From contig NZ_CP092365.1 of the NCBI RefSeq assembly GCF_022370835.2, positions 2,480,001-2,544,000 of the forward strand: DNA of 64,000 bases, given 5' to 3'. Position numbers and translations under genes: made by a program. Position 1 is the stretch's first letter; every line of letters starts with the position of its first letter. Positions 27,593 to 29,313 of the stretch are shown piece by piece. The notes under the pieces were generated by a model, which had not been told where the DNA came from, made no database searches, and saw only the letters and a list, made by a program, of their open reading frames with translations. This DNA is from Mycolicibacillus parakoreensis (GTDB taxonomy: Bacteria; Actinomycetota; Actinomycetes; Mycobacteriales; Mycobacteriaceae).

Positions 27593-28513
27593 ATGACCTA
27601 CTCGGTGTTGCTGCACGACCCGGCCACCGGCGGGTTCGGGGTGGCGGTGCAGTCGCACTACCTGGCGGTGGGCGCCGTGGTGCCGTGGGCGCAGGCCGGG
27701 GTCGGCGCGGTGGCGACCCAGGCGGTCCCCGACCGCGGCTACGGGCCGCGCGGCCTGGCGGCGCTGGACGCCGGCAGCGGGGCCGCTGCGGCGCTGCGCA
27801 CGCTGGTCGCCGCCGACGACGTCCGCGACCTGCGCCAGGTGGCGATGATCGACGCCTCCGGCGCCACCGCGGTGCACACCGGGGCGCGGTGCCTGCCGGC
27901 CGCCGGCCACCGCACCGGCGACGGCTGGTGCGTGCAGGGCAACATGTTGACCTCCGAGGCGGTGCTCGAGGCGATGGCGGCCGCGGTGGCCGCCCCCGAC
28001 CACGACGACCCGGCCCGGCGCCTGTGGGCGGCGCTGCGCGCCGGTGAGGACGCCGGGGGCGATCTGCGCGGATGCCAGTCGGCTGCGCTGGTGGTGGTCA
28101 GCGGGGTGCGCGGGCCGGCGCCGCACGATCAGGTGCTGGTGGATCTGCGCGTCGACGACAGCGCCGACCCGATCACCGATCTGGCCCGGCTGCTGGAGCG
28201 CCACGATGGTGCCGCCGCGGTGGGGGCCGCGTTCGGGCTGGTCATCGACGGGGCCGCGCAGTTGCCGGCCCGCCTCGTCGACGCGGTCACCGCCGGCACC
28301 CGCGCCGTCGAGCCGATGCTGGGCGCCGACAACCCCGAGGCCCCGCTCTGGCGGGCCGTGCTGCTGGCCCGCTCGGGGCGAATCACCGAGGCGCACACCG
28401 AGTACCGCGCCGCGGTGGCCCGCCAGCCGCGGCTGCGCGATGTGGGCCTGCGCCTGGCCGCGGCGGGATTGCTGCCGCAGGCCGCGGCCGCCGCGCTCTG
28501 CGGTCCGGCCTAA
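27593..28513 (+). CDS. DUF1028 family protein (Ntn-hydrolase-like)
   Basis: A 306-aa DUF1028 protein: MTYSVLLHDPATGGFGVAVQSHYLAVGAVVPWAQAGVGAVATQA is the characteristic beta-rich N-terminus (shown in parts), followed by GYGPRGL and GWCVQGNMLTSEAVL with the conserved asparagine. The fold is predicted Ntn-hydrolase-like. Many members carry a C-terminal peptidoglycan-binding or tetratricopeptide-like extension; here residues about 255-300 look helical and repeat-like. The function of the family is unknown. Its TAA stop (28511-28513) lies inside the left inverted repeat of the adjacent mobile-element remnant, so the original 3' end may have been altered. Confidence 0.75.
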   Translation: MTYSVLLHDPATGGFGVAVQSHYLAVGAVVPWAQAGVGAVATQAVPDRGYGPRGLAALDAGSGAAAALRTLVAADDVRDLRQVAMIDASGATAVHTGARCLPAAGHRTGDGWCVQGNMLTSEAVLEAMAAAVAAPDHDDPARRLWAALRAGEDAGGDLRGCQSAALVVVSGVRGPAPHDQVLVDLRVDDSADPITDLARLLERHDGAAAVGAAFGLVIDGAAQLPARLVDAVTAGTRAVEPMLGADNPEAPLWRAVLLARSGRITEAHTEYRAAVARQPRLRDVGLRLAAAGLLPQAAAAALCGPA

Positions 28514-28529
28514 AGCGTGTCGAACAACT
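28511..28529 (+). repeat. Left terminal inverted repeat
   Basis: TAAAGCGTGTCGAACAACT; identical to the reverse complement of 29295-29313. Its first three bases are the stop codon of the DUF1028 gene. Confidence 0.85.
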
Positions 28530-28537
28530 GGCTCTGA

Positions 28538-29253
28538 TCGAGTCTGTGTAGGAGCAGGGCGATTTGGCTGGGGATCAGGAAACACGACGACACCCGCCGG
28601 CTACGCCGTATGCTCGCTTGGGGCCGGGCCAAGATTCTGTTCGCCACCGTCACCCAGCGTGCGGGCCGCTGGTGGGTATCGGTGAACAGCGAAGCCGCCG
28701 ACCTACACCCGGCCCACCAGCACCCACCCGCACACATCGCCGATGGCGAGGGCTGGGTCGGGGTTGATCGGGGCCTGACCGCATTAGTCGTCGCCGCCAC
28801 GACCGGCTCGTCATCGAGAACCTGCATGTAGCCGCGATGCTGCGCAACCACCGACTCGCCCGCGCCATCTCCGACGCCGGCTGGGCCGAATTCGCCCGCC
28901 AACTGCACTACAAACAGGCATGGCGCGGCGGCCAGGTCATCGAGGCCGACCGCTGGTATCCCTCCAGCCAACTCCGCTCGACCTGCGGTGACCGGCGCAC
29001 CGACCTGACCCTGGCTGAGCGGGTATTCACCTGCCCACAAGGTCACACCCTAGATGGTGACACCAACGCTGCGGTCAACCTGGCCCGGTGGGGCCAAACC
29101 CATCATGACCCACCACGATCCCCGGACCCCCAAGCAGGAGGCCGGGCCACCAACGCCCGCCGACCGGACGGCTCTGACCAGCACCCTTCGCGTGCCGGTG
29201 AAACCAGCCTGGTTGACGCGGGAACTGACGTTCACGCCGCACCAGCAGCCTGA
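28538..29253 (+). pseudogene. tnpB: Degenerate TnpB (RNA-guided nuclease family) with internal deletion and frameshift
   Basis: Residual reading frames match TnpB of mycobacterial IS elements. Frame one (28538-28831) reads IRKHDDTRRLRRMLAWGRAK ... RWWVSVNSEAADLHPA ... GWVGVDRGLTALVVAA and holds the RuvC-I Asp. Frame two (about 28801-29253) reads LVIENLHVAAMLRNHRLARAI with the RuvC-II Glu, then WRGGQVIEADRWYPSSQL, and GDTNAAVNLAR with the RuvC-III Asp. Roughly 70-90 residues normally between RuvC-I and RuvC-II are missing and the join is out of frame. The N-terminal third is also absent. The zinc ribbon is damaged: the first CxxC reads RSTC and the second CPQGH. Inactive as a nuclease by any reading. 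Confidence 0.85.
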
Positions 29254-29294
29254 ACCGACGACGCCCGAGAAGGGCGGTGACGAACACTCAGCAG

Positions 29295-29313
29295 AGTTGT
29301 TCGACACGCTTTA
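29295..29313 (-). repeat. Right terminal inverted repeat
   Basis: Reverse complement of the left repeat, perfect over 19 bp. The bases 29311-29313 read TAA on the minus strand and are the stop codon of the nitronate monooxygenase gene, mirroring the left end. Confidence 0.85.

Follow-up and report, generated by a model that had tools for sequence, protein, structure and literature searches.

In the partially available text of PMC3627910, prokaryotic TnpB proteins are described as encoded by IS200/605 or IS607 elements, and Fanzor1 proteins are assigned to Mariner, Helitron, IS4-type, Sola2, and other eukaryotic and viral elements (PMC3627910). Excerpts of a second paper associate TnpB with Y1 and serine transposases (PMC9956272), and those of a third contain the proposal of a maintenance role for TnpB (PMC10278001). 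For Fanzors in elements with terminal inverted repeats (TIRs), reRNA reads extend beyond the target-site duplication (TSD), according to the accessible portion of PMC10711439. In the literature that we searched, which was largely without subscription papers, bacterial TnpB is known with Y1 or serine transposases and Fanzors are also known in DDE cut-and-paste elements; we found no description there of a tnpB-carrying IS5-type element from bacteria. Here, we describe a tnpB locus of Mycolicibacillus parakoreensis and its relatives in other genomes and compare them with these systems.

We analyzed a 64,000 bp stretch (hereafter the window; positions 2480001–2544000) of the 3.94 Mb M. parakoreensis genome. 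A preliminary description of the window had reported a decayed tnpB between perfect 19-bp inverted ends, and this was confirmed: the repeats lie at 28511–28529 (plus strand) and 29295–29313 (minus strand) with a spacing of 765 bp, and the tnpB sequence between them matches the Pfam domain Cas12f1-like_TNB (65.8 bits). When the 15-bp TIR core was searched with up to two mismatches, these two TIRs were the only sites in the window (0.04 expected). The whole element, termed copy A, occupies 28511–29313 (803 bp with both terminal TAs counted; plus strand by its tnpB), and the first two bases of the left TIR and the last two of the right TIR are the TA of the duplicated target. Positions 28511–28581 on the minus strand hold the 3′ end of an IS5-family DDE transposase gene, with 71 bp of the gene end kept, 23 residues matching, and a stop codon composed of the TA and the flanking base; retention of this gene end indicates that a transposase was once present. 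The tnpB gene survives as two plus-strand pieces, one at 28583–28807, equivalent to positions 1452–1676 of copy C (see below), and one at 28798–29253, which carries the RuvC and zinc-ribbon part in another frame and ends with a stop codon at 29251–29253. The damage listed in the preliminary description (internal deletion, frameshift, and a damaged zinc ribbon) was thereby located: tnpB of copy A has two internal deletions relative to copy C, a frameshift, and an Arg codon at 28975–28977 (plus strand) in place of the first zinc-ribbon Cys, so that QLRSTCG stands where copy C has QLCSVCG.

Copy A is flanked by two convergent genes, which we take to resemble DUF1028-type and nitronate monooxygenase genes. 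The element ends, 28511–28513 and 29311–29313, provide the stop codons of both genes, so neither frame was harmed by the insertion. When 61 genomes were searched for the right flank, the right-hand gene was recovered, the left-hand gene adjoined it in 0 of the 19 loci checked, and hence no empty site of copy A was found.

In the complete M. parakoreensis genome, 13 sites matched the 15-bp core with up to two mismatches, and a control search with the reversed pattern gave 0. Six of the 13 sites, those with 0–1 mismatch, are the ends of three TIR-bounded elements, namely copy A (803 bp, in the window), copy B (757 bp), and copy C (2,418 bp); the other seven have two mismatches. Recurrence of the 19-bp repeat in these three elements, and in relatives, disposes of the objection, raised in advance, that it might be single-copy. 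Copy C contains an IS5-type transposase gene on the minus strand, frameshifted across two frames (Pfam DDE_Tnp_1 and DUF4096), and, divergent from it, an open tnpB frame with TnpB domains. Copy A maps to positions 1–71, 1452–1676, and 1887–2418 of copy C, and copy B maps to 1–302 and 2061–2418 together with a short piece. Because A and B map differently onto C, they represent distinct deletion products of a single element type; copy A retains the end of the transposase gene and two tnpB pieces.

Elements of this kind, which we call composites, are all built alike. From the left TIR, which adjoins the C-terminal end of a minus-strand DDE transposase gene, they run through that gene, a gap of about 80–120 bp, and a plus-strand tnpB to the right TIR. 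When copy C was compared with 297 genomes of the genus, 101 of them yielded matches, many of which were short, and 55 of the 297 reached an E value of 1e-20 or better. Scanning of the named genomes with two short peptide patterns of the transposase, by which divergent relatives are missed, identified 15 loci, 12 of which have both TIRs. Both genes or their remains were present in all 12, and in none of these 12 loci does the transposase stand between such TIRs without tnpB. The three loci without both TIRs are L056, which has both genes and no TIR and lies at the end of a short contig, the fragment L061, and L063, a distant Streptomyces protein. Complete copies measure 2.39–2.43 kb, with the DDE gene and tnpB both inside about 2.4 kb; examples occur in Mycobacterium sp. 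SM1 (two copies), M. vanbaalenii BC8_1, Mycobacterium sp. PO1, and M. fortunisiensis. Thus the full-length copies and the DDE transposase with matching ends that the preliminary description had suggested looking for do exist, the former as copy C (2,418 bp) and the complete copies in relatives, the latter in copy C and the 12 named two-TIR loci. No inner TIR with fewer than eight mismatches was found between the two genes in any of the five copies checked. A remnant with both TIRs (L079) occurs in another family of the order. Among plasmid records, 25 matched the transposase, each at less than 60% identity, and one matched TnpB at 46%.

In Mycobacterium sp. SM1, the two copies share 97.3% identity over 2,399 columns; the BC8_1 and PO1 copies share 97.5% over 2,404 columns with no gaps, and the 500-bp flanks are unmatched within both pairs. 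The insertion site of another composite, L055, was found in 109 of 118 genomes; L055 reads TA-element-TA, versus a single TA in 18 of the 19 relatives aligned across the junction, and L140, the nineteenth, carries two additional bases at that position. Near-identical complete copies at unrelated sites, together with the TA duplication at L055, show that both genes move as a unit; the near-identical copies suggest transposition by the element's own transposase. As a separate observation, L055 and L032 are two rather different element copies at the same chromosomal CTA site.

IS5 elements prefer YTAR as target. In our count, comprising 25 insertions with a left end and six more (four left ends were set by hand, and that of L033 is probably one base off), the base before the left TA was C in 30 of 31 insertions, and the base after the right TA was G in 23 and A in 8. 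The target, as read from these flanks, is CTAR-like, in line with YTAR. The transposase frame is closed by the TA and the neighboring base, so a pyrimidine at that position creates a stop codon, and the need for this codon could also account for the C beside the left TA. As evidence for a TAM (see below), the excess of the left C over the right G is weak (P = 0.026), and C or T at that position also closes the transposase frame.

The transposase matched the NCBIfam IS5 family model NF033580 (transpos_IS5_3) with 176.5 bits against a cut-off of 110. TnpB of the PO1 copy scored 222.6 bits with guided_TnpB (cut-off 100) and 324.2 bits with IS607_TnpB, below the cut-off of 350; it aligned with ISDra2 TnpB (E = 8.7e-37), including the RuvC motif residues, which we take to be the catalytic ones. 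RuvC and zinc-ribbon motifs are present in PO1 TnpB, and the window copy is broken. In a sample of 45 loci, picked mostly by likeness to tnpB, tnpB was intact in 31 and not intact in 14, and the transposase was intact in five, two of which (L020 and L022) have shifted stretches. Among the 15 transposase-anchored loci, tnpB was a full frame in eight. Values of dN/dS ranged from 0.24 to 0.55 for tnpB (11 pairs, all below 1) and from 0.21 to 0.35 for the transposase (three pairs); the two closest tnpB pairs, at 0.45 and 0.55, indicate little constraint. These ratios suggest purifying selection on both tnpB and the transposase. Activity of TnpB in these elements is inferred.

The conserved region 3′ of tnpB terminates in two hairpins, and the 3′ arm of the last one is the right TIR. 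In copy A, the 3′ part of the predicted omega-RNA scaffold extends over 29153–29313 on the plus strand and overlaps the end of tnpB, at the right end, where the preliminary description had suggested looking for an omega-RNA; it is defined by an RNAalifold consensus of 17 copies with 38 pairs, 12 of which show double changes. An invariant GC hairpin (CGCCC-GAGAA-GGGCG; 29262–29276, plus strand) is followed by the terminal hairpin (GTGYCGAAC...GTTCGRCAC-GCTTTA; 29277–29307, plus strand), whose 3′ arm at 29299–29307 lies within the right TIR. In outgroup loci, the letters of the arms are changed and the pairing is kept, as in L099 (GTGTCCGATAAC/GTTATCGGACAC) and L101 (GTGTCTCA/TGAGACAC), and the arms of L032 (CCAGC/GCTGG) are likewise paired. 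A simple count of arm positions gave 199 of 243 cells paired, a value reached by eight of 2,000 shuffles and thus weak. In a set of 28 distinct arm pairs (L106 included; L025, L033, L030, L048, L104, and repeats of listed arm pairs left out), 82.1% of the cells paired versus 76.1% after shuffling (0 of 500 as high), both-side changes affected six of the nine hairpin pairs versus 2.9 in shuffles (2 of 500 as high), and pairing fell to 18–33% when the arms were slid by 1–3 columns. Folded alone, all 11 hairpins tested were more stable than the shuffle mean (z from −1.7 to −4.9). Three loci searched against Rfam gave no match up to an E value of 0.01. These comparisons show that the right TIR coincides with the 3′ arm of a conserved, covarying predicted hairpin that ends the tnpB region. 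At hairpin position 4, a non-standard pair, mostly C-A, occurs in 16 of the 28 rows, with A in the TIR and C in the RNA arm, which either counts against perfect pairing or reflects two demands pulling apart. The hairpin is also kept where the transposase and left TIR are gone, which argues for a role in RNA and not for a joint function. Since the right TIR forms the 3′ arm of the hairpin that closes the predicted omega-RNA, the scaffold would end where the transposon ends, and the flanking DNA would act as the guide.

Outgroup loci were sought in 397 genomes of the order: of the 30 transposase loci fetched, 26 are ordinary IS5 relatives with about 40% identity, whose best inverted ends are 0.93–1.11 kb apart, and for 25 of the 26 no tnpB was found in the fetched stretch. 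In the one other case (L081, genome G508), a distant tnpB (30% identity) is the neighbor of an ordinary IS5-type element whose inverted ends are too close together to hold it. In a DNA tree of 42 tnpB genes, with modest support at several deep nodes, the deepest branches were L101, L103, L106, L104, L047, L099, and L100, none of which has a transposase match or left TIR; within the inner tree, composites are intermixed with copies without a left TIR. At L032, the left TIR is degraded and the transposase mostly lost, tnpB is open, and the right hairpin is paired, so this locus may illustrate a route by which the mobile part is lost. Capture of tnpB by an IS5-type element, after which some lineages lost the mobile part, would fit these observations best. 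The right ends of L047, L099, and L101 resemble IS5-type TIRs (0, 4, and 5 of 1,000 shuffles as high, in a test that used 17 hand-picked TIRs of the 26 outgroup ones and right ends with one flanking base), and neither a transposase nor a left TIR was found alongside them. The capture may have used a pre-existing resemblance between omega-RNA end and TIR, or these three loci may be relics of older composites.

L101, L102, and L103, each with tnpB and no transposase match or left TIR, represent a resident tnpB that occupies the same place in three species of another genus; the region is 92–93% identical over 4.3 kb, and dN/dS is 0.29 for one pair. L043 and L044, with tnpB, a perfect 19-bp right TIR, and no left TIR or transposase match, lie at corresponding positions in two species, 93% identical over 4.5 kb, with tnpB open in one and frameshifted in the other. 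In five of the 297 genomes (L048, L104, L156, L157, and L158), tnpB of this clade is followed, immediately behind the predicted RNA end, by a tRNA D-arm stretch of 12–15 nt (TAGCTCAGTTGGTAG or close), beyond which the DNA varies between species; L188, the match to this pattern in a sixth genome, is not of that form. The D-arm stretch is possibly a kept guide, or a trace of an old insertion in a tRNA gene; tnpB is frameshifted in four of the five loci, which argues against a working guide.

Taken together, we consider it likely that the window feature is a decayed deletion copy of an approximately 2.4-kb IS5-family DDE transposon that captured tnpB, with TnpB as its maintenance nuclease. In such an element, the DDE transposase would excise the element and insert it at CTAR-like sites. 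The omega-RNA would run past the right TIR into the flank, and TnpB would bind it, with its scaffold reaching to the TIR/TA boundary and the host DNA beyond the right end serving as guide. After excision, the rejoined donor site, in which the left flank ending in CTA is followed by the guide match, would be a target of TnpB, and repair of the cut from a chromosome still bearing the element would restore the element. The candidate TAM would be the CTA that precedes the guide match at the vacated site; the element's own end reads TTTA. The more specific proposal that this lineage fused its right TIR with the last stem of the TnpB guide RNA, such that one sequence would be both transposase site and scaffold, the CTAR target would supply both guide and TAM, and every vacated site would be cuttable by TnpB, seems to us evenly poised between true and false.

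Several other explanations were weighed against the captured-tnpB transposon. Its tnpB might be idle cargo, the hairpin an ancestral omega-RNA end, and TnpB without part in the life of the composite. This is unlikely in our judgment: persistence of the hairpin in relatives without transposase or left TIR and the many broken tnpB genes (14 of 45) agree with idle cargo, whereas the full tnpB frame in 8 of 15 transposase-anchored loci and dN/dS below 1 in 11 of 11 pairs do not. A role of the terminal hairpin as transcription terminator or DNA transposition signal, and not as part of a guide RNA, would accord with its position 3′ of tnpB and, in the window, between convergent genes, and hairpins in DNA do have a function at IS200/IS605 ends, as the available text of PMC3627910 states. 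Yet no T-run follows the hairpin (GCTTTA, then varied DNA), it belongs to a longer structured stretch that reaches into the end of tnpB, and its pairing is kept in relatives without left TIR or transposase, so that we give this role little credence. A bidirectional terminator was also considered and dropped. As to the other objection raised in advance, such a terminator conserved without tnpB, each of the 12 transposase-anchored loci with both TIRs has tnpB or remnants of it.

The preliminary description had further proposed that copy A, having no tnpA, was a transposase-less inverted-repeat carrier of tnpB that moved in trans. Placement of tnpB in an inverted-repeat element stands; the absence of a transposase and the movement in trans are not supported. 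The parent element encodes an IS5-family transposase of its own. The TIRs and TA of copy A are intact, and three loci have both TIRs and tnpB with little or no transposase (L025, 1,684 bp; L028, 1,741 bp; L039, 1,704 bp), which speaks for trans movement, but tnpB of copy A is broken, and the different deletions of A and B give no sign that A moved after loss of the transposase, which makes this origin quite improbable. Even a chance neighborhood of an IS5 element and a tnpB element, with repeats unrelated to tnpB, has a parallel in the adjoining genes of L081. Against it, both genes lie within one TIR pair with no inner TIR, they moved jointly over 2.4 kb, and the layout is repeated in 12 named loci; we attach almost no probability to this explanation, and it was dropped on the grounds of the single enclosing TIR pair, the joint movement, and the recurring layout.

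An IS5-type element of bacteria that carries tnpB, and whose TIR lies within the predicted scaffold, would demonstrate that the jump of these nucleases to DDE elements took place in bacteria too, and it makes testable both the role of TnpB as a retention nuclease for a DDE transposase and the evolution of a guide RNA and a transposon end that share one sequence. The composite resembles IS5-family insertion sequences in its DDE transposase, TIRs, 2-bp TA duplication, and CTAR-like target, and the TIRs of ordinary IS5 relatives are related to its own. Unlike these insertion sequences of about 1 kb, it measures about 2.4 kb, with tnpB placed between the start of the transposase gene and the right TIR. 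With IS607 elements and those IS200/IS605 elements that carry tnpB, it has in common the RuvC/zinc-ribbon layout of TnpB and a structured RNA region up to the right end, whereas those elements, as far as described in the available text of PMC3627910, are without the DDE transposase, TIRs, and target duplication that the composite has. The maintenance role of TnpB put forward in the excerpts of PMC10278001 would here be coupled to a DDE transposase. Fanzor DDE transposons of eukaryotes and viruses likewise place a TnpB-family nuclease gene in a cut-and-paste element with TIRs and TSD, and for Fanzor TIR elements the guide-RNA scaffold is predicted to include the TIR and TSD, according to the accessible portion of PMC10711439. 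Compared with them, the composite is bacterial, encodes TnpB and not Fanzor, belongs to the IS5 family, and has a guide RNA predicted from sequence.
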